Source: Simmondsia chinensis
Taxonomy: Eukaryota > Streptophyta > Magnoliopsida > Caryophyllales > Simmondsiaceae
Direction of reading: 5' to 3'
DNA: 64,000 nucleotides
Assembly (NCBI GenBank): GCA_018398585.1
Contig: JAGTTD010000010.1
Span: 25,057,739 to 25,121,738, forward strand
Both the position numbers and the translations under genes were made by a program. Shown piece by piece: positions 1,107-54,765 of this stretch (its first letter is position 1; each line of letters begins with the position of its first letter). A model generated the notes under the pieces. That model was not told the origin of the DNA. It saw nothing but the letters and a program-made list of their open reading frames with translations, and made no database searches.

Positions 1107-2246
1107 CTATGTGTGGTATTTCTTAAGATTCTTCATATTCCAGGATCGCAGTACTTCAGTACCATTGAGACGCTGCAGCTTATAGCTCCCATTTTCAAGC
1201 TTCGTACTTATACGGTAGGGGCCTTCCTAATTGGCGGCCATTTTTCCTGATCCGATGCCATGAGTAATGCTTGCTTGATTCAGCACCAGGTCCCCTACCT
1301 CCACACTTCTAGGCCTTACATGCGTATCATAGTATTGAGATATCCGCTGCTTCAGAGCCGTTATGCGAAGGAGGGCATTTTCCCTAGTTTCGTCGATTAG
1401 ATCAAGGGAATGTCTTCGCATTTCTTCATTTTCCAGCTGACGGTACCCTTGGGTCCGATGGCTGGGCTCTCCTATTTCCACTGGGATTACGGCCTCGGCT
1501 CCATAGACCGACATGAAAGGAGTTTCCCCCGTGGCTACTCGATAAATGGTACGGTGGGCCCAAAGAACACTAGGTAACTCTTCCAACCACTTTCCTTTTG
1601 CATCGTCCAACCTTCGTCGTAATCTCACAAGTATCTGCTTGTTCTCGGCTTCTACTTGACCATTGCTTTGTGGGTAAGCCACTGATGCGAAGTGGAAGGA
1701 GATCTTCAGGTGTTGGCAATAGTTACAGAATCATGGTGAGCTAAGTTGCGTTCCGTTATCAGTTATGATGGCTCGTGGGATTCCGAAGTGAGTTATGATG
1801 TTTTTCCATAAATAGTAGCAGGTGGCGTGGTCAGTGATACTAGCTACTGCTTCTGCTTCTACCCATTTGCTGAATTAATCTACAGCCACTATCAGAAATT
1901 TTCTTTGTCCACTAACCAACGGGAATGGGCCCAAGATATCCATCCCCCATTGGTCAAAAGGTATGGGGCCAACGATGGGGTGTAGTGGTACCACCGGGGA
2001 GTGGATTAATGGTGCAAATTTCTGACACTTATCACATTTCCGTACGAATGCGGTGGCATCTTTTTCCGTGGTAGGCCAAAAGTATCCGGATCTTAGCATC
2101 ATTCTCACTAATGTTTGCCTTCTGACGTGTACTCCGCAGATCCCTTCATGGATTTCTCTTAGGAAGTAATTCCCCTCTTCCTGAGTTAGGCATTTTAGCA
2201 GGGGGTACATGAATGACCTTTTATAGAGCTGTTGGTCGATTATCAC
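1107..2246 (-). pseudogene. Tat integrase, three in-frame stops
   Basis: Integrase inserts retroelement cDNA into DNA. Reading leftward from 2246, a zinc-binding region shows EIHEGICGVH followed by CDKCQ, then the core with the first acidic residue in WGMDILGPF, then AYPQSNGQVEAENK carrying the catalytic Glu, then a C-terminal domain with RPRSVEVGDLVL and GPYRISTKLENGSYKL. The frame ends at 1107 with TAG after KKYHT. In-frame stops lie at 1875-1877, 1731-1733 and 1227-1229, so no active protein can be made. It is the distal part of pol, followed by the antisense ORF. Confidence 0.9.
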
Positions 2247-2520
2247 AAAATGGGCCGCTTGTCGCTGTAGCTTTCATGCTTCCTTTTTGTCTGCGGGTAT
2301 TTTGTTTTGCAAAATGAAATCCATAATAGGACGCATCCATCCCTCTTCATGCTGTATCTGCATTGTATCCCAGGGAAGGGGTCGGTTTGGGTACTTCACG
2401 TCGACCTCTTGTATCTGCACCTCTCCTTCTTCTGTTCCTATCGCCTGAGGCCAGCCAACCGACTTAGCTTATCGGCCCGCTTATTGTCTTCACGGGAGAT
2501 TCCTCGTATACTGAAGCTCT

Positions 2521-3402
2521 CTAATCCAAAGATTCGCTTCTGAACCAGGCTAGGTGGAGCTCCTTTACTCCGTATTCCCCAGTTACCTGATTTACTACGA
2601 GTTCTGAGTCATTGAAGACCTCAAAATGCTTGGCGCCAGCCGCTCTAGTGTAGTCAATGCCTAGGAGCAAGGCCTCATACTCAGTTTCATTATTTGTAGC
2701 GTTAAAATTAAGTTTCACCGCATATTTCGTGTATTCCCCTTCTAGATTTATCAGCACGATGCCTGCGCCATTGCTTCCTTGGTTGACGGTTCTGTCAATG
2801 AATAGTCTCCAAAGGTGATCCTCTTTGGGGGAGCTGCCAGCTCGGGTATTTCAAAGTTGCATTCCACCGGAAAGTCGGCCAGGGCCTGTGCCTTGATGGC
2901 CAGGTGGGGCGAATACTGAATATCATGTTCCGAGAGTTCTACTGCCCATTTTAACATCCTTTCTAAGCAATCTAGCTTTCCTAGCAACTTTGAAAAGGAA
3001 GATGAGTGAGCACAATGATGGTATGGGCTTTAAAATAGGGCCTCAGCTTACGCGCAGCAATGACCAAGGCCAACGTGGTCTTTTCTATGGCAGGGTATCT
3101 TTTTTCTGCGTTCTTAAGGGATTGGCTCACAAAATATACCGGGAGCTGCCTACCTTCACGATCGGCAATTAATACGGCACTGGTGGTGTTTTCTGAAATG
3201 GCTAACTAAATGCTCAGCTTCTCGTTTTGCTCGGGAGAGGTAATGACTGGGAGTTGAGCTAGATATTGCTTTAGCTGTTGAAAGGCGTGCTTGCATTCTT
3301 CATTCCAGCAGAAGGGTTGCTTTTTCCGTAATGTTTTAAAGAATGGCAGGGCCTTGTCGGTAGAACGGCTGATGAATCTATTGAGAGAGGCCATGCAGCC
3401 GG
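2521..3402 (-). pseudogene. Tat RT connection and RNase H domains, frameshifted
   Basis: From right to left: the RT tail (FFKTLRKKQPFCWNEECKHA), a tether-type RNase H stretch (LADREGRQLPVYFVSQSL-like), a linker (HDIQYSPHLAIKAQALADF) and the RNase H at 2521-2757 with NNETEYEALLLGIDYTR and FNDSELVVNQV. The last is the extra RNase H that Tat elements carry; its D-E-D acidic set is partly visible. The pieces lie in different frames with stops between them, so it is inactive. RNase H would remove genomic RNA during reverse transcription. Confidence 0.82.
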
Positions 3403-4256
3403 CTAGCTTTTGGACATCTTTAGAGGAACGGGGTGATCCCATTTCGAGAATGGCGCGTATCTTTCGGGGGTTAGCCTCAATTCCTCTGGTGCTAACAATA
3501 AATCCCAGGAATTTCCCTCAGGTACCGCAAACGAGCACTTTTCAGGATTGAGCTTCATCTTGTACCTCCTGAGTGCTTCCAGAGCCTCTCTTAGGTCTTC
3601 AATGTGATCTAGGTTCCTCCTGGATTTGACTATCATATCTTCCCATAAACTTCCATGTTGCGGCCGATTTGAGAGTCGAAAATTTTATTGACTAGTCGCT
3701 GATATGTGGCGCCAGCATTTTTGAGGCCAAATGGCATGACTTTGTAGCAGTATGTATCCTCAGCTGTTATGAAGGAAGTTTTCTCTTCATCCTTTGGATG
3801 CATGGGGATATGGTGGTAGCCTGAGAAAGCATCCACAAAACTGAATAGTTCGCAACCTGCCGTTGAGTCTACTAATTTGCCTATTTTGGGAAGAGGGTAG
3901 GAGTCCTTTGGGCAAGCGTTATTGAGGTCTGTGAAATTGACACACATTCTCCAATTTTTGTTTGCCTTTTTCATCAGAACTACGTTAGCTAGCCATTCCG
4001 GTTAAGCTAGCTCCCTAATCGATCCGGCTTGGATCAGTTTTAGTACTTCCAGTTTAACGGCCTCGTTGCACTCGGCGCAAATGTTACGCTTTCGCTGTTT
4101 CACCGATTTTTTGTCAGTCTGAACATTGAGCTGGTGGGTGATTGCTTCTGGCGGTATCCCGGGTATCTCGTTAGCAGAAAACGCAAAGATGTCCCGGTAT
4201 TGTTTTGAGAGTTCACCAACTTTCTCCTTCAGATGGCGAGGGACTGAGGCGCCCAT
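3403..4256 (-). pseudogene. Tat reverse transcriptase, broken at the catalytic box
   Basis: The RT fingers and palm are easily read: VNFTDLNNACPKDSYPLP, then FVDAFSGYHHIPM with the first catalytic Asp, then VMPFGLKNAGATYQRLV. An in-frame TAA lies at 4002-4004, just before the PEWLANVV segment. Around 3640 the frame changes exactly at the position of the YxDD box, so the metal-binding pair is lost from the reading frame. The downstream stretch (MIVKSRRNLDHIEDL) continues in another frame to about 3403. Confidence 0.9.
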
Positions 4257-4335
4257 ATAGGTGTATCACCCTAGCTCTAGCTCATACTTCTCCAGAGACG
4301 ATGGGGCCGGCTCCAGATTTGAGGATGACTTGGGC

Positions 4336-5215
4336 TCAGCCGGCTCGGTCAGTTATCAAGGCTGAATCAGGAAGGTTGTGATAATATTCGGAGAGGGAGC
4401 CTTGACTGCCACGAATAGTCATGATGCCGCCAGTGTTACTTTTGAACTTCATAGCTAGGTGATAGGTGGAGACCACGGCCCTTAGACGATTCAAGGAGGG
4501 TCTCCCAAGGATCACATTATAGGTTGAGGGAGCGTCTATGACCAAGAATTCAATTTTGATGGTGCATTGTCCTCCCTCACCCTGAAAGGGGGCGGATATA
4601 AGTATCTTCCCTTGTGGTAAAATGGGGTTTCCGGCGAACCCTACGACAGGGCTTGATGTGGGGATAAGTGAGGAAGTGGACATCCCCATCTGGGCGTAAC
4701 AACTCAAGAAGAGCACATCCACAGGACTGCCTTGGTTGACCAAGATTCTGTGGATGATATACCCGTGAATATTAGCGGTTATAACCAGAGGGTCCTCCTG
4801 GTATGCGTCAATTCCTTGCGCATCCTCCTCTGTGAAGCTTATGCACTTGGGTTTATTAAGTGCCCAGTGAGGCCCCTTCCTTTTTTTCCTAACCCCCAAT
4901 TTTCCACTTTCTAGCGGTTCTCTTTTAGTGATGGCGACGACGACCGGCGGCGCCGTTTTGCTCGGTCCTGGGTCATGAGTATCTTCATTGCGAGCTTTTC
5001 CTGCCTTTATCCTCTGTAAGTTTGTGTATTCTATCCATTTCCCTGTGCGCTCAGCCTCTTCCAGGCGGGATTTTAACCCACGGCAGTCTGCGGTGTTGTG
5101 GGTGGTTATTTGGTGATAGGCGCACCAATCACTCTTTTTGTTTCTTGAATCCTTTGGCTGTTCTCCTGCTTTTATCGCCAGCAGCGGTCGTGCGGCTTCC
5201 AGCGGGACCTGTGTT
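4336..5215 (-). pseudogene. Tat gag C-terminus and aspartic protease
   Basis: This frame is open from about 5215 to 4336. It starts with a zinc-knuckle-like motif (CAYH, then HNTADC), continues through a basic linker, and reaches a retroviral-type protease. The active-site region reads ILVNQGSPVDVLF. Family members usually have Asp where this copy has Asn (NQG), so the catalytic residue is probably lost. The flap and later region (ILGRPSLNRLRAVVSTYH) is present. The frame differs from the gag frame upstream, so a frame change separates them at about 5172-5220. Confidence 0.82.
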
Positions 5216-6158
5216 TTGAAAAGGGCTTGCTCCTTTTTGGTTGCCGGGCATTTCTTAGTGGTGGCCTGAAATCCCCTTTTGGTCTAGGGGAGGTCCCCAC
5301 CTGAACTACTTCAGGCCTTGGCATCACATCTTCAGTGGAAATATATTTGTTGGCCTTGCGCCATAGGTCGTCAACCGTTAGAGGCGGCCCCTTGGCTAGC
5401 GCAAATTTAAAGGGAGAATTATGTAATCCGTTAACAAAGGCAGTAATGGCCATTTCATCAGAGAGGTCGGCGACGTCGATTGTAGCACTGGTGAACCGTC
5501 GTACATAACTTCTTAGGGGTTCAAACTCATTCTGCTGTAATTTGAGAAGACGTGCAGCCGTTCTCCTTCCCCTTTTGTTGCTCACAAAGTGACGCACGAA
5601 CCGTTCAGAGAGCTCTGTGAACCCGTCAATGGATGAGTATGGAAGGGAGGAGAGCCAACTTTGCGCGGCCCCCTTGAGGGTGGCGGGAGAGCATTTGCAC
5701 CATATATCTTCCCCTACGTCTTGTAGGTACATCCGCACTGCAAAACCGGCCAGATGGTCCTCTGGGTCCTGGGTCCCGTCAAATGCATCCATACTAGGAA
5801 TTTTCACCTTTCCCACAGGTGCCCGGAGGAGTTGGGACATAAAAGGTGAGTGGGTTCCCGGTACTAAAGGCATCACCCCTACCCCGGGGTCTCGATGGTG
5901 GTTACTGCTAGTGTAGTTATGATGAGCGCTGGTACGGGATTCGGTGATTGGATTTTGGCTTTCATTTGGATCGCGCCGGGAGGCTCTGGGGGTGGTGATA
6001 GATTGGCTGGGGTTTGGGACCTTTTCGGCGCCGTTATCCACCATTTGGTTAAAGAACCGGGTGAGTTGGCGTTGCAATTGACTGAATTGTTCTTGGGTTA
6101 CATAATTCGGGCGGTGGCCCTAGTGGTGGAGGGGGGTGGAATGACTGGTGTTTGACAT
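5172..6158 (-). pseudogene. Tat gag polyprotein, premature stop at codon 13
   Basis: Gag forms the virus-like particle that packages element RNA. The first ATG after the PBS is at 6156-6158, and an in-frame TAG follows at 6120-6122 (codon 13). The frame then stays open to 5172. The core retrotransposon gag domain is clear: VKIPSMDAFDGTQDPEDHL, then AAQSWLSSLPYSSIDGF, then NEFEPLRSYVRRF and ALAKGPPLTVDDL. The C-terminal zinc-knuckle part continues in a different frame, annotated with the protease. Confidence 0.88.
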
Positions 6159-20184: not shown

Positions 20185-20883
20185 CTAATTATTTTTTTTA
20201 AGAATAACTTTCAATTCTCGGTTTGAAATTTCCACTTGTCCACTTGTTTGAGGATGGTATGGAGTACCCACATAGTGTGTGACTCCATACTTACTCAATA
20301 AAGCTTTAAGTTGGCGGTCATAAAAATGTTTTCCGCCATCACTTATAATTGCTCTAAGAGTTCCAAACCAAGAAAAGATGGTTTTTCTAACGAAGTTTAC
20401 AACAACTCTAGCATCATTGGTTGGAAAAGCAACTGCTTCGACCCATTTTGACACATAATCTACAGCAACCAAAATAAATATGTTACAAAATGATGAGGGG
20501 AAAGAACCCATGAAATCAATTCCCCAAACGTCAAATAATTCAACAACCAGAATGTTGTTTAGGGGCATTTCATGTTTTTTGGAAATGTTACCTGTCCTTT
20601 AACATCTAACACATTTACTAACAAATTTAAAAGCATCTTTAAAGAGTGTAGGCCAATAAAACCCAGATTGTAAAACCTTAGCTGCAGTTTTTGTCCCACC
20701 ATGATGGCCACCAATTTCAAGAGAGTGACAGTGACGCATAATATTTTCCATTTCTTCCTCAGGTACACATCTTCTGATAATCTGGCTTGCACAATGCTTA
20801 CACAAGAATGGTTCTTCCCAAACATAATTCTTGAAGTCGGCGAAGAACTTCTTCTTATGTTGATAAGTCATGTCTTCGGGCAA
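20185..20883 (-). pseudogene. Athila integrase zinc finger and catalytic core
   Basis: The HHCC finger is visible (RHCHSLEIGGHHGG, then SKCVRC). A single in-frame TAA follows at about 20599. The core then runs open: [10 protein letters not shown] with the first Asp, [10 protein letters not shown] with the second, and [12 protein letters not shown] with the Glu. The DDE triad is thus present in sequence although the ORF is split. After LKKNN the frame shifts into the C-terminal domain. Confidence 0.9.
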
Positions 20884-21321
20884 TTCCTATGCAACCAGAT
20901 AGTTAACAATGTCAGTGTACCATGGACAATCGGGATTCTCACTTACCATCATAAGACTTTCATCTGGGAATTTTTCGTTAATAGAGGGTCCTTTGTCCTC
21001 CTGTTCGTGGCGTGACAGATGATTTGCCACGACATTTTCCGTACCCTTTTTATCCCGTATTTCGAAATCAAATTCTTGAAGTAAGAGAGCCCATCAAATC
21101 AGTCTCGGTTTTGCATCCAGTTTGGCAAAAAGGTACTTTAGAGCAGAATGATCAATACAAATAATTACCCTTGAATTAAGCAAGTAGGAACGAAATTTGT
21201 CAAATGCAAACACTATAGCTAGTAATTCCTTCTTAGTAGTAGCATAGTTAACATGTGCGTCTGTCAAAGTTTTGCTTGCATAGTAAATCACATGAAAATT
21301 TTTGCTCCTTTGCCCCAGCAC
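20884..21321 (-). pseudogene. Athila RNase H domain
   Basis: Reads VIYYASKTLTDAHVNYATTK, KELLAIVFAFDKFRSYLLNS, then IDHSALKYLFAKLDAKPRLI. It continues after a stop with [20 protein letters not shown] and NHLSR. These are the standard RNase H and linker motifs of Athila pol. A stop at about 21094 and another before the integrase finger break it. Confidence 0.88.
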
Positions 21322-22513
21322 AGCCCCTACAGCTTAGTCACTAGCGTCACACATAAGTTTAAAGTGTAAGGTCCAGGCAGGTGCTACGATTATAGGTGCT
21401 GAGGCTAATTTTTTCTTCAGAGTCTCAAAAGCATTCATGCAATCACTATCAAAGTTAAAAGGGACATCTATCATCAGCAAATTACAGAGAGGCTCAGCGA
21501 TCTTAGAGAAGTCCTTAATAAACCTTTTTTAGAAACCAGCATGTCCTAAAAAACTTCCAATACCCTTAACATTGGTAAGGGGTGGTAATCGTTCTATCAC
21601 TTCTGTTTTTGCTCTATCAACCTCAATTCCTCTTTTTGAAATCATATGTCCTAACACTATTCCTTCTTGTACCATAAAATGAATTTCTCCCAATTCAAAA
21701 CAAGATTAGTGTCAGTGCATCTTTGCAAAACCATAGAGAGGTTAGCCAAACAATCATCAAATGAGGTCCCAAAGACTGAAAAATCATCCATAAATACTTT
21801 AATGAAAATTTTCACCATATCACTAAAAATTGCCATCGTACATCTTTCAAAAGTCGCAAGAGCATTGCATAACCCAAAAGGCATTTTCCTATAGGCAAAG
21901 GACAAGTGAAAGTGGTATTTTCCTAATCTTCCGGGGCCATGGCAATTTGATTGTATCCTGAATATCCATCAAGAAAACAGTAATGTGAATGTCCCGCCAG
22001 TTTTTCTAAAATTTGATCAATGAATGGTAAGGGGAAGTGGTCCTTTCGGGTGGCATTATTAAGTTTTCAATAATCTATGCAAACCCTCCACCCGGTGACA
22101 ATTCTAGTAGGGATGAGTTCATTGTTCTCATTTTCTCCCCCCCTCTTTTTTTGGGACTACTTGTACTAGGCTCACCCATGGGCTATCAGATCTGGGATAA
22201 ATTATCTCGGCATCTAATAATTTGACAACTTTCCTTATCACTTCTTTCATGGCAAGGTTCAACCGCCGCTGAGGTTGTACAGAAAGTTTGAAGCTATCTT
22301 CCATGAGAATTTTGTGCATGCATATGGAAGGGCTAATCCCCTTCCGATTGCTAATTTATGCTTTCTTAGAACTCTAAGCAACCTTTCCTGTTCAATGTTA
22401 CTCAATGAGGCATTAATAATAACAGGATAAGAGTTAGAATTACCTAGATAGGCATATTTGAGATGTGGTGGCAATGGCTTAAGCTCAAGAATTGGAGGTT
22501 CGTCTTTTTCCAT
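21322..22513 (-). pseudogene. Athila reverse transcriptase
   Basis: Order on the minus strand: ELKPLPPHLKYAYLGNSNSY (linker from protease), CMHKILMEDSFKLSVQPQRR-like, IIYPRSDSPWVSLVQVVPKK, GWRVCIDY followed by a stop, FPLPFIDQILEKLAGHSHYC, SGYNQI, then MPFGLCNALATFERC and FMDDFSVFG with the catalytic Asp pair. At least two frame shifts (between 22513 and 22319, and near 21950) and one stop disable it. The catalytic box itself is undamaged. Confidence 0.9.
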
Positions 22514-22569
22514 TTTTTGCTGAATTTCATTTGCTTAAATGTCTTCCACTTCGTATTTCGCTGTGCGAA

Positions 22570-23535
22570 TCAAAAGGGTTCGCAGCTTTTCAGGTGTTGA
22601 GCACATTCCCTTATAAACTCGTCTTCTATGTCTATGGTCCTAGATTTTGTTAGACACACTTCAAGGGGCAACTTCAGGAATGTGTCCCTGAATGTCTCAG
22701 TGACCAACTCATCTACAATATCAACCTCAAAACAAGAATCCATGTTAGACAGAAATTGAATGGCATTAAAGACGTTGAAGGTTACCTGTTCATCTTGTAC
22801 TCTTAGGATTAGCTTTCCTTGTTGTTCGTCTATCAGGGTCCTTCCTGTAGCAAGGACAGGTCTGCCTAAATTAAGAGGTATCTCACGATCCTCTTCCATG
22901 TCAAGTACTATGAAGTCAGCCGAGAAGATGAATTTATCGACCTTCACAAGGACGTCTTCAATTACACCTCTAGGATACTTGATTGATCTGTCTGCAAGTT
23001 GGAGAGATACAGTGGTAGGATTCAGTTCTCCTAACCCAAGCTTCCTGAAAATAGAGAGAGGCATTAAATTTATACTTGCACCTAAATCACATAAAACTTT
23101 ATCAAAACTAATAGAGCCGATGGTGCAAGGTATCATGAAACTCCCTGGATCTTTTAACTTAGGAAGCAACTTCTTTTGCAGTATGGCACTGCATTCTTCA
23201 GTAAGTGCTACCGTTTCGAACTCTCCTAACTTCCTTTTGTTAGATAGAATTTATTTCATTAATTTTGCGTATTTGGGTATCTGTTCTAACACGTCAGCAA
23301 AAGGGACATTAATGTGTAACTTTTTGAAAATTTCCAGAAATTTAGCAAATTGCTCGTCCGCTTTTGTCTTTCTCAGGCGTTGAGGGAATGGAACCTTTGG
23401 TTTTTAGGGTTGAGGTCCAACCCTTTTTGGCTCATTTTGGTCTTAGATTTTTGTCCCTTCCTCATTTTCCGTCTCCTGATTTACATCAGTAGACAGGTCA
23501 ATTATGGGTTGTTCATTTGGCATGGTTTTCTCTAC
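22570..23535 (-). pseudogene. Athila aspartic protease and gag-pro linker
   Basis: The linker (FAKFLEIFKKLHINVPFADV) has stops at several points. 22570-23169 is one long open frame: LKDPGSFMIPCTIGS, then VLCDLGASINLMPLSIFRKL with the active-site Asp in the DLGA form usual for Athila, then GVIEDVLVKVDKFIF and LNLGRPVLATGRTLID. The enzyme would cleave the gag-pol polyprotein. It shares the gag frame but is separated from it by stops, including one just after KEPT at 23536. Confidence 0.88.
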
Positions 23536-24777
23536 TTAAGTTGGTTCTTTCAAAATTTTTTCACTTCGTAATTCTATTGCTTTTACTTGCTCTAGTGGGT
23601 TAATGACAGTGTTACTGGATAAGGAACCTTGAGATCTATCAGAAAGGTGATTTGAAATTTGTCGAATTTGGGTTTCAAGGTTCCTAATGGTCGCTTCTTG
23701 ATTGCAAATCAAAGTTTTTTGATTTCGAAGAGTTGCTTCAGTGTTTTGCATAAACTTACTAAACAATTCCTTGAGATCAGTTTTTCTTTCAGGGGGCTGA
23801 AAAGGTTGTTATTGTATCCCTTGATTGTTCCATAAAAAATTTGGATGGTTTCTCCACCCGGGATTATATGTGTTGGAATGGGGTTTATTTTTTTGAAAAT
23901 TTGAAACAAAATTGTCTTGTTCATGGGTTGATGGGGAAAAAGGATTTCCTATTTGGCATTCTACGCTAGGATGATTCGCTACACAAAATTCACATGTCAG
24001 TACAAGAGAATTTATGGCATTCACGTTCATGTTCATCTGTTTTTCAAGTGTTGCAACCTTAGCAGTTAACCTTGTTATTGCATCCAGCTCGTATATACCT
24101 GCAGGTTTCTTTTGCTGTGTTGCCCTTGCATAGTTATTGCTAGCCATTATTTCTAGCAGATCATATGCATCTTCTGGAGTTTTGAGGTTTAGCGATCCTC
24201 CAAACGCCGCGTCTACCATCGTTTGAGTGTTAGGTGCCACCCCGCTATAAAAAGTTTGGACTTGCATCCAGACAGGTAAACCATGATGGGGGCACCTTCT
24301 CAAAAGTTCTTTGCAAAGTTCCCATGCCTCATATAAAGATTCCGTATCATATTGTACAAACAAGGCAATGCCATTCCTCGTCTTAGCTGATTTGGCTGGT
24401 GCACAATATTTTGCTGGAAATATTTTAGCCAAATCATCCCAGGTGGTAATGGTTCCTGAGGGTAATGACATTAACCACACTTTGGCTTTATCTCTTAGTG
24501 AAAATGGAAACAACCTTAAGTGGACGGCATCATCGCTGACACCATTATGCTTAAAGGTATCGCATATCTCAAAATTGTTTGCTTGAATTGGTGGACGTCG
24601 AATGCTAGAAGTGCACCCTCCAACAGTAGGTACAGTATAATCTTTTAAGGTCCTTTCATCATCATTTCCAGTATTATTAGCCATGGTTTCATTCCTTTTT
24701 ATTTTCCTGATTAGTTGAAGTGTTTTTTTCAATTTTAGGGTCAAAGGAGTTATTTCTTCTTCAATTAAATTTTTCAT
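23536..24777 (-). pseudogene. Athila gag, one internal stop and an in-frame deletion
   Basis: The probable true start is the Met of MANNTGNDDERTLKDYTVP near 24684. The core domain reads LRLFPFSLRDKAKVWLMSLP, LYEAWELCKELLRRCPHHGL and LLEIMASNNYARATQQKKPA, then a Cys/His segment (CEFCVANHPSVEC) and NTYNPGWRNHPNF. An in-frame TAA occurs at about 23809, after which the same frame continues with a coiled segment (IRNLETQIRQISNHLSDRSQ). QANNFE runs directly into ICDTFK; family members normally have about 30 residues between these blocks. Confidence 0.9.
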
Positions 24778-25358
24778 ACAACATAAAAATAAACAACTAT
24801 AAAGTTAAAGAAAAGGACAACAACAAAGAGAAAAGTATAACACAAAATTCAACAAAGCTAAATTCTAAGGGGAAAATAGGTATTACTAGAGGATTTGAAA
24901 ATTTTGGGATAGCAACCCTAACTTTGAAAATCTATTTAGATGGTAAAATAAAATTAAAATAAGGTTAAACTTAACTAGAAAACATAAAAATACAATAATT
25001 TAAAATAAAAGAAAACACAAATTTTGGTAAAAGAGAGAGTTAGCAGCCCTAATGTTTTTGAAAACTTAAAAATATCAAAATTTACTTTTGAAATACTAAC
25101 AAAGTGAACTTAATTCAAAAATAAAGCTGAAAATAAAGACAAAATATAAGAAAAATAACAGAATAACACAAAAGTAAAAAAAAAAAATTTTAATATACGA
25201 ATTTTATTTAATTAATATTTTTAAGAATTACCTTTATAAATAAAATAAAATGAATGAAAATAGTTTTATATTTCAAATTTAACAAAATTTACAAATTATT
25301 AACCGTTTCAAATTAGCCCAAAACTAGTTGGTACTGATATCACTCAAATAGAGACAAT
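24778..25358 (-). other. 5' untranslated leader of Athila element D
   Basis: AT-rich sequence between gag and PBS with A-rich runs on the plus strand; no ORF of note. Confidence 0.6.
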
Positions 25359-52550: not shown

Positions 52551-53003
52551 TGTTGGGACGTATTTCAAAAATAATCCCTAAATTAATCTAATTAATACAG
52601 GGGAATGATTTAAAATTTCCAATTTTAAACCTATAGGTGATTTAAAATTTCTAATTTTAGATCTATAAGCCTCTACTCTAATGCATTCATAATTAAAAAA
52701 ATGAAAAATAACTAGCATAATAAATATTATAAATAAATAGAGAAACAAAAAAAACAAAGAGAGAAAAAAAAAAAGAAAAATAACTAGGTGTAGATCACAA
52801 TGTCACTCTAAGAAATTCTCGAGACCGCGAGACCTTCTGCACAATCTCCTCAAAACACCCAGAGTGTGGGCTCCAAAAAATATTGAACTAGAGGAAAATT
52901 TTCAACGGTAATTTCTCCTCTTTTAATTATATAAAAGTCAATTCTCTAAGAAAATTATAAAATTAATTAATTTTTCAATGCCAAACCTTAATTCCAGGAC
53001 CTT

Positions 53004-53011
53004 TATTTATA
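53004..53011 (-). promoter_or_regulatory. TATA box of copia LTR C4
   Basis: TATAAATA on the minus strand, the transcription direction set by the PPT. The equivalent in C1 is at 13262-13269. The SINE target site starts 3 bp upstream of it. Confidence 0.6.
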
Positions 53012-53013
53012 AT

Positions 53014-53029
53014 AGGCTACTTAACCAAA
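53014..53029. repeat. SINE target duplication, left copy
   Basis: AGGCTACTTAACCAAA here and AGGCTACTAGACCAAA at 53258-53273 match at 14 of 16 positions. Confidence 0.85.
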
Positions 53030-53257
53030 GAAGGTGCCAACACGCTGTCACCGGATTTCATTAGAACTCCGAAGTTAAGCATGCTTGGGTGAAAGCAGTA
53101 CCAGGATGGGTGACCTCCTAGGAAGTCCTCACCCTCAGGTTAAGGGCACCCGGAAACAACCTCTCTTCAAGGGTATTACCTTGAAGGGAGAAGGCTGCGT
53201 ACATCCGCCTCCCAGATCCTACTTAGGTAGGAGCCCTAGGGGCACTGGGTATGATGC
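53030..53257 (+). mobile_element. Chimeric SINE with 5S rRNA-derived head and Au-like body
   Basis: About 228 bp between 16-bp target duplications. The head (53033-53139) aligns with plant 5S rRNA after a short 5' deletion: CACCGGATTTCATTAGAACT, GAAGTTAAGCATGCTTGGGT (box A, 53071-53090), GGATGGGTGACCTCCT (intermediate element and box C, 53104-53119) and GGAAGTCCT. The body (53151-53250) has GGAAACAACCTCTCTTC, AAGGCTGCGTACATCC and GGCACTGGGTATG, which I recognise as the conserved body of plant Au-type SINEs. It also has a perfect 8-bp hairpin (CTTCAAGG 53165-53172 with CCTTGAAG 53179-53186). SINEs are transcribed by polymerase III and moved by LINE enzymes. Confidence 0.8.
53033..53139 (+). 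ncRNA. 5S rRNA-like sequence (SINE head, not a functional gene)
   Basis: Covers most of the 120-nt 5S rRNA with the internal control region nearly intact, but lacks about 8 bases near the 5' end. The 3' end departs after AGTCCTC, so the terminal stem cannot pair as in real 5S. It is a single copy, not a tandem array. Confidence 0.85.
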
Positions 53258-53484
53258 AGGCTACTAGACCAAACATTTCATGAAAAATTGATGGGGGATA
53301 CTTGCAAAACGACTCCATTTTGCTCATTTGAAAACCGCCACCCAGAATGTTCCATATGGCACGTTTTGGTTCGTCTCTACCTCACGACGCAGATCGATGC
53401 CTTGGGGCATCCCAAAGCATGCCACGCTCTGATTGTTCCACGGCCGAAGGCGCGGATCGATGGTTGGGGACCACCAGTGCACAA

Positions 53485-53490
53485 CACGTG
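53485..53490. promoter_or_regulatory. CACGTG (G-box) in copia LTR C4
   Basis: Found also in C1 (13040-13045), C2 (36726-36731) and C3 (39287-39292). Distance from the outer LTR end is 691 in C2, 661 in C3 and 690 here after removing the SINE and its duplicate. Confidence 0.6.
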
Positions 53491-54765
53491 TCATGCACTA
53501 GTTGGCCCCTTGCTTTGTACACGAATTTCCTTTTTTTCTTTTTTTTTTTGTTTTCCACATGTAAAAATTATCTTATGAATTTTTATATTAACAAAATTAT
53601 TTTATTTAAAAATTTTAGTTTTATTCACCTAATGAGTACTGTTTAGCGATTGTAAATTTACTCATCACATGAATAAATAATTCATTTCATGAATTCTTTC
53701 AACATTTTTCTGATGGAGTATAATTATGGGCTTGTGTAGGGACCTCAGGGAAAATTTAGATCTCTCCCCAAATAGGTTGAATTAATTATCATCTCATGAT
53801 AAAATTACATTATCATTTAGCCAGACTTAATCCTAATAAATAAATCCTACTGCACTCTAGAATTAAATTATTTATTTGGTAATTTTCAATTAGAGTATTT
53901 TGACAACAACAACCCCTCTATTACAAATCCATGAGAAAAAATAATTATAACGACTGCCATTATTTTTGTCACAACTTTTCCATTAGTTCTCAACTTACCC
54001 CTTTCTAAATAATTTATTTATACATGAACAATTTCATTGTATAAACTCAAAATTTCAAACACTTGGAATACCTTGGCAAAGTTTCTGAATTAATTCAAAC
54101 ACTTGTGAATCAACTGAGGGGACATCTGCATCTCATGAGAGACTGTAGAATCCCTATTGAATACCTGATCCCTGTCACTGTTCATGCTATATCCAGTGTA
54201 TGTAAGACTTCGGTTGCATTTAGAGACCTAACTTTTAAGTACACTAAGATAACCAACACTCCATGCATAGGTCCATAATACTATCAGGATTTAAAGTCAC
54301 CGTTCAAATAGTACATCATGAATCACTCATTTCTGATAGTAGTCTAGATATAAGTAACTCACTTGGTCCAGCTCAATGCTCTAATCTTATTGATGAACAC
54401 TAACATGACACTTCTGGATCCCTATCCCCATGACCTGGACAAGCCATCTAAGGTATCATGTTGTAATCTTATCAAACAAATTGTCCAAAACTTATCATCG
54501 ACTATGAACTTACTTTAACAACACATCGCAATGTTTTATTTAAGTCCACCAATGAGTCACTCTCATTGACCACTTAAACCAAATTATGACATGCTGTATT
54601 GGACTACGTCCATCTCATGGAACGATTTAGATATAATCACATGCATATTTGACCCATTAACCATAATCAGACATAAAATAATTAAAACAATATTATTTAT
54701 TGATATTTAAATACAAATAATTAGGTTTGTCTAAACACTGGTTCCAACAATCTCCCACTTTTCCT

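Follow-up and report, generated by a model that had tools for sequence, protein, structure and literature searches.

A mobile SINE family with a 5S rRNA-derived head in the genome of Simmondsia chinensis

An element at positions 53024-53257 (+) of the window, by which we mean the whole 64,000-nt stretch of DNA analysed, consists of a 5S-like head followed by a body, with a short repeat on both sides. It belongs to a mobile plant SINE family in which head and body have moved as a unit. We are highly confident that this family represents a SINE3-like, non-autonomous retrotransposon, mobilised by a LINE and born by a template jump, which combines a type 1 RNA polymerase III (Pol III) head with a body of approximately 123 nt from a TTG-tailed LINE, probably of the RTE clade. 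Within this reading, we infer the Pol III transcription, the mobilisation by the LINE and the template-jump birth.

Copies, target duplications and empty sites

Similarity searches were performed in the source plant's own genome (831,394,711 bases, 35 contigs). With 53030-53257 as the query, 40 places were scored out of 6,782 first-look candidates. The 39 places other than the window were 86–89% identical to the window copy and, as all 40 covered at least query positions 8–223, the 5S/body junction was spanned in each. A family consensus was built from the window copy and the 39 fetched copies, and extended by ACCAAA to 235 nt; when used as the query, it yielded 40 scored places of 5,485 candidates, with 94–98% identity. 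The junction of this family (type I) was present at no fewer than 6,975 places (3,473 and 3,502 on the two strands), as counted with a 37-nt pattern and up to three mismatches, while the reversed-pattern control gave none. The exact junction pattern was found at no place in viral or in bacterial and archaeal contig collections, which is uninformative on other plants.

Target duplications were evaluated against pairings of swapped flanks. They exceeded the 99th percentile of the control in 32 of 40 copies (the 39 copies and the window; 200 pairings) and, in a second, overlapping set of unique full copies, in 55 of 67 (268 pairings), leaving 12 copies of that set without a significant duplication; partial copies and copies close to the end of a locus had been removed from it. 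The 55 significant duplications were 10–28 bp long, 38 of them 15–20 bp, and their inner edge fell at consensus position 0 or +1 in 31 cases and within -1 to +2 in 40. These edges place the 5' end of the family at ACCAAA (53024), which corrects the start at 53030 given in the original prediction. Clustering of the 67 copies assigned 63 to one group and the window copy alone to another, with three older copies apart. With a length of approximately 234 nt, no coding capacity, dispersal on both strands and target duplications, these copies have the properties of a SINE. The expectation that a search with 53030-53257 would return many copies with the same junction was thus borne out, as was the proposal of a plant SINE family with a 5S head and one body moved together, which the junction counts, the duplications and the empty sites described below confirm.

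Near the tail, TTTT occurred in 41 of the 67 copies compared to 28 of 67 in a 5' flank of equal length, an excess that weakly supports a putative terminator.

The window copy is 89.4% identical to the family consensus (Table 1). Its 16-bp duplication, already recognised in the original prediction, scored 10, as against a 99th percentile of 9.0 and a maximum of 10 among 200 swapped flanks; as it lies at the top of the control, it is only moderate evidence when taken alone. The duplication could range from 8–10 to 16 bp, and the 16-base reading arises because ACCAAA is both the start of the element itself and part of the target in two of four empty sites (see below). Since box A, the intermediate element and box C are all altered in this copy, and the first T-run downstream of it lies only at 53318, it is probably dead as judged from its sequence. 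In its body hairpin, a G-C pair of the family consensus is replaced by A-T, a paired change.

Table 1. Positions of the parts of the window copy and of its target duplications.
Feature	Coordinates in the window	Strand	Basis or remarks
5' target-site duplication	53014..53023 minimum, to 53029 with ACCAAA	+	Pairs with 53258-53267 (8/10) or 53258-53273 (14/16)
5S rRNA-derived head, 111 nt, 5' end equivalent to 5S +1	53024..53134	+	Rfam RF00001; consensus compared with host 5S
Box A, putative internal type 1 Pol III promoter	53073..53087	+	Consensus equals host 5S at all 15 positions; one difference in window copy
Intermediate element, TGAAAG in window copy	53090..53095	+	CGAGAG in host and family consensus; two differences in window copy
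Box C, putative internal promoter	53103..53120	+	Consensus AGGATGGGTGACCTCCTG, host AAGATGGGTGACCTCTTG, window copy AGGATGGGTGACCTCCTA
LINE-derived 3' body, from TCAGG on	53135..53257	+	Consensus aligned to LINE-type 3' ends
Body hairpin CTTCAAGG-GTATTA-CCTTGAAG	53165..53186	+	Sequence
3' target-site duplication	53258..53267 minimum, to 53273	+	Pairing with 5' copy; empty sites

At 52800-53500 of the window, the SINE lies inside another dispersed repeat, one relative of which starts at position 25122790 of contig 5, approximately 1 kb beyond the window end. Besides the window's own matches, 39 scored relatives of this repeat were 73–85% identical. The joined flanks of the window copy, used as a query in the same genome, gave 41 matches (40 scored of 2,417 candidates), two of which were the window's own halves. 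Twelve of the 41 spanned the query from positions 1–32 to at least 330 at approximately query length, into which an insert of 234 bp would not fit. Four of these twelve were fetched and aligned; all ran uninterrupted across the insertion point and thus represent the empty target. Opposite 53014..53023 they read AGGTTACTGG, AGGCTACTGG (twice) and AGGCTATTGC; across the insertion point, one of them (L161) reads TTTATAATAGGTTACTGGACCAAACATTTCA, and ACCAAA is present as target sequence in this site and in L162. As relatives of the repeat lack the element at this site, head and body arrived together, and in the window copy they are a single insertion.

The 5S-derived head and the LINE-derived body

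The Rfam 5S_rRNA model (RF00001) matched 53024-53141 (+) of the window with 58.1 bits, against a cut-off of 38 bits, and ARAGORN found no tRNA in the whole window. The head thus has 5S homology together with box A, an intermediate element and box C, in agreement with the 5S-like segment of the original prediction, in which these three boxes were said to be readable; their positions follow the layout of the 5S promoter.

The best-scoring host 5S genes lie in tandem arrays on contig 8, where 46 of 47 scored matches (of 51,838 candidates) were located. Two such arrays were seen on this contig, at approximately 4.69 Mb and 6.41 Mb, on opposite strands and with a usual spacing of approximately 435 and 421 bp, and two main host 5S variants are present. 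In ungapped comparison with host 5S, the type I consensus was identical at 10 of 25 positions over 1–25 and at 75 of 79 over 26–104 (23/23 in 26–48, 45/49 in 49–97 and 7/7 in 98–104), which indicates that the promoter region has been kept and the first 25 nt have not. The head would accordingly be a type 1 internal Pol III promoter, from which we infer transcription by Pol III. In the common host 5S variants, 25 nt separate the first base from CACCGG, and the 5' end of the elements, including the sister types II and III described below, lies 24–25 nt before CACCGG, matching the 5S gene. Differences between head and host include AGGATGGG and CTCCTGGG, which are presumably the usual plant 5S state, so that the host 5S may have changed after the head was formed.

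Folding of the heads of types I, II and III gave a terminal helix (GAGGGT:ACCCTC in type I, GGGTT:AACCC in type III). The energy of the head was reached by 6, 3 and 5 of 500 shuffles of the first 25 nt for types I, II and III, respectively, by 3, 8 and 33 of 1000 shuffles of the first 11–12 nt, and by 18, 53 and 83 of 1000 sets of random letters over the first 11–12 nt. At least as many helix pairs were formed in 5, 99 and 201 of 500 shuffles, so that their number is not unusual for types II and III, and the terminal helix is missing from the lowest-energy fold of the whole type II and III elements. Further, the strict-majority head of type II lost the 5S-like fold, though its energy still beat 991 of 1000 shuffles. 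Given their close relationship, types I and II do not count as separate tests of folding. On balance, the folds do no more than suggest that the terminal helix of the heads has been rebuilt.

The body motifs named in the original prediction are present in the sequence. A related-body pattern with GGTAAGGCTGCG occurred at 154 + 150 places, and the control gave none. Twenty places with this type of body were fetched; four (L124–L127) were 5S-headed SINEs and 16 had no 5S head. Nine further matches to the body alone were located in the sequence flanking fetched loci. By eye, 14 of the 16 headless copies have TTG-type repeats at their end; several have upstream sequence in common, or begin at different points and carry duplications of their own. 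LINE-type 3' ends at 16 distinct places, to all of which the body aligns, were 75–85% identical to the consensus; the set comprised 18 entries, as two of the places were represented twice. Their homology starts at consensus 109–112 in 13 of the 16 and at 114, 126 and 134 in the other three, the usual onset being about 53132–53135 in the window copy. The 12-bp spacer that had been placed between head and body is thus mostly LINE-derived.

A reverse transcriptase was found upstream of the body in two (L128 and L131) of four places fetched at length. In L131 the reverse transcriptase frame is 447 aa long (RVT_1, E 2.9e-35), and L128 has two RVT_1 pieces (E 8.9e-24 and 7.2e-5, the latter under the Pfam cut-off), preceded on the N-terminal side by a 243-aa frame without a match in Pfam. 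Over a stretch of 2.2 kb that leads up to the body and includes it, L128 and L131 match at 79.8%. The other two, L129 and L130, have only approximately 400–520 bp in common at the 3' end, and no reverse transcriptase frame was seen in them by eye. These alignments identify the body as the 3' terminus of a TTG-tailed, reverse transcriptase-bearing LINE from the same genome. Two observations had been named beforehand as adverse to a mobile fusion. A junction found only here is contradicted by the 6,975 places; tail copies without the head do occur, but look like LINE copies, because most have (TTG)n tails, their upstream ends vary and two carry reverse transcriptase.

Among the best 120 of 3,575 homologues listed for the LINE protein, identities were 46–62%, with 53–60% for named plant relatives and 46–50% for relatives from two catfish species. 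Its sequence matches in PDB included R2 and L1 proteins alike. According to the part of Ohshima 2013 (PMC3747384) that deals with LINE tails, all seven of seven plant RTE families have a (TTG)n or (TTGATG)n tail, and 224 of 233 L1 families have a poly(A) tail; the same source describes approximately 100 nt shared by the tobacco TS SINE and a potato RTE-clade LINE. Because its (TTG)n tail is that of the plant RTE families, the partner LINE is probably of the RTE clade, an assignment by tail rather than by tree.

Sister types and the origin of the fusion

More diverged 5S-headed elements with other junctions were found in the flanks of young copies. In type II, the junction GTCCTCGTGTTGCACCCC|TCAGGTTGGGG has the 3' end of 5S in full and passes directly into LINE sequence. 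It was counted at 3,864 places (1,905 and 1,959; up to three mismatches), with none for the reversed control. In 20 fetched copies, selected by the exact junction, the head is 119 nt, which is the length of host 5S. Compared to host variant B, the strict majority of these copies plus ACC was identical at 12 of 25 positions over 1–25 and 91 of 94 over 26–119, or 73 of 76 when the search pattern is excluded. Duplications were above the control in 13 of the 20 (100 pairings), with the edge at -3 to +1 in eight, inside the head in three and 16–21 nt upstream in two; seven copies had no significant duplication.

Type III, whose junction reads GTGTTGCCAACCCTATAAGGTTGGGGGTCC, ends in (TTG)n and was counted at 5,885 places (3,051 and 2,834; reversed control, 0). 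Four of eight fetched copies had duplications above the control (56 pairings) and four did not; in three of the former the edge was at +1, with the 5' end 24–25 nt before CACCGG. Its head agrees with host 5S at 13 of 25 positions over 1–25 and at 85 of 88 over 26–113. Types I and II are closely related, at 86.6% for the heads and 92.1% for the tails, and their tails are TTGC(T)n or a similar sequence instead of (TTG)n; type III is more distant. As each junction pattern is at least 11 bases from the consensus of the other types, the three counts should not overlap. They total 16,724 junctions, about 20 per Mb, and at approximately 235 nt each would make up roughly 0.5% of the genome by arithmetic.

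Recruitment of TFIIIA, TFIIIC and Pol III, and initiation at the first base, are established for 5S genes. The head would act likewise, with transcription starting at the first base of the element, and the transcript would end in the LINE 3' sequence recognised by the LINE reverse transcriptase. The LINE proteins would then copy the SINE RNA at a target nick (target-primed reverse transcription), which would produce the long target duplications. As for its birth, the LINE enzyme may have begun on LINE RNA and jumped to the 3' end of 5S rRNA; template jumping is favoured because the head of type II begins and ends just as the RNA does, from +1 to the last base, with neither spacer nor T-run. 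The 111-nt head of type I may have derived by a net loss of eight bases at the junction (119 to 111), and sequence comparison, rather than a tree, suggests the order from a type II-like whole head to the shortened type I head.

A fusion on DNA, by insertion of a LINE where a 5S gene ends and without any template jump, is a possible though less probable route. A LINE landing in the T-run behind a 5S gene would also yield 5S followed by LINE sequence; against this, type II shows no T-run between the last 5S base and the LINE, in a sample of 20 copies whose selection by exact junction makes copies with a T-run invisible, and the 5' end of the element is the +1 of the RNA.

The original prediction was that a 5S head had taken the place of the tRNA head on an Au-type body. 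The likeness of this body to the Au and TS bodies would suit such a swap, made by recombination in a SINE of the Au/TS type. So would the T-run tails, which Au also has (PMC3747384). However, LINE-type elements with the same 3' end are present in the same genome and type II is a whole 5S joined straight to LINE sequence; a tRNA B box combined with the body pattern was found at no place, which counts weakly since a single exact pattern with no mismatch was used. The exchange of heads is therefore improbable, and the findings are better explained by a direct joining of 5S and LINE sequence, probably through template jumping.

Solo LTRs of a Cassandra-type TRIM carrying 5S sequence would also be plant dispersed repeats of LTR-like length with 5S sequence in them. 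Cassandra target duplications measure 5 bp. Those of the related TRIMs Helenus and Ajax are 4–5 bp in the section of PMC10886601 concerned, in contrast with the long duplications of our family, which are not of the short LTR type. Together with the LINE-derived 3' end and the start of the copies at 5S +1, this led us to reject solo LTRs as very improbable. Least credible of all are independent insertions, in which a 5S pseudogene came to lie beside an older fragment of a SINE or LINE; the body does occur without the head in LINE-type copies, but the identical junction recurs thousands of times and the empty sites lack both parts, so that this explanation was rejected, as the original prediction had argued from the duplication.

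Relation to known elements

SINE3 elements of fish, mammals and Lepidoptera likewise have a 5S head with a type 1 promoter, a LINE-derived 3' end and target duplications; here the host is a plant and the body is the end of a plant TTG-type LINE. The body motifs and the T-run tail presumably resemble those of Au SINEs and the Angio-domain SINE superfamily, from which our family differs in that its head is 5S, not tRNA-derived as in Au and TS, and in that its body can be traced to a LINE. The TS SINE of tobacco also has an approximately 100-nt 3' end in common with a (TTG)n LINE, as stated in part of PMC3747384, whereas TS has a tRNA head and types I and II end in a T-run after TTGC or TTCC. Cassandra TRIMs are, in the portion of PMC10853983 concerned, another plant retroelement with a captured 5S promoter; they are LTR elements, in contrast with the long duplications and the LINE-derived end found here. 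The 5S-related SINEs of Aspergillus fumigatus (PMC5063351) are also non-animal, the host being a fungus.

The hosts of 5S-headed SINEs named in the relevant passages of PMC3747384 and PMC10886601 are animals and one fungus, and a large plant family is unexpected, since such elements are known mainly from animals and some fungi. Among the matches listed in open-licence full texts, no plant 5S-headed SINE was found; an earlier report in the subscription literature is possible. An Asteraceae paper, in the passage concerned, counts 5S-like sequences among SINE3 'including plants', citing the Cassandra paper, and a passage of Maiwald 2024 gives SINEs in animals as the example of a captured 5S-type promoter. 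The plant SINE tool AnnoSINE drops candidates nearly identical to Rfam RNAs, according to part of its description, which might be one reason why 5S-headed families were overlooked.

In the part of Kojima 2024 (PMC10886601) on Cassandra, the idea is repeated that this element perhaps arose from a SINE3 landing in an LTR; this needs a plant SINE3, and such a family is found here. Ohshima 2013 (PMC3747384), in the section on T-tailed Au-like SINEs, left their partner LINE unidentified; the T-tailed and TTG-tailed SINEs described here have one LINE 3' end in common. Type II, with its exact boundaries, further offers an unblurred view of how SINEs may originate. More speculatively, and with considerable doubt, the three types with more than 16,700 junctions could be a plant radiation of 5S-headed SINEs that began with an RTE-type reverse transcriptase jumping to mature 5S rRNA as its template. 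This radiation might be the proposed plant SINE3 source of the Cassandra 5S promoter, the RTE-type LINE might be the partner of the T-tailed Au-like SINEs, and the rebuilt terminal helix might reflect a 5S-like fold kept, for example, for binding 5S-partner proteins or the ribosome.

Elsewhere in the window, integrase- and gag-like frames of LTR retrotransposons were seen by eye at 1227-6119 and 20185-24804 (-). An Rfam match to the plant snoRNA snoR71 (RF00097) at 24278-24383 (+), with 54.3 bits against a cut-off of 40, lies opposite a gag-like open frame at 23809-24804 on the other strand. In the genome, plastid matK gave 27 matches in contigs 4, 8, 13, 14, 35 and others, 24 of them with internal stops, which are presumably plastid DNA inserted in the nucleus.
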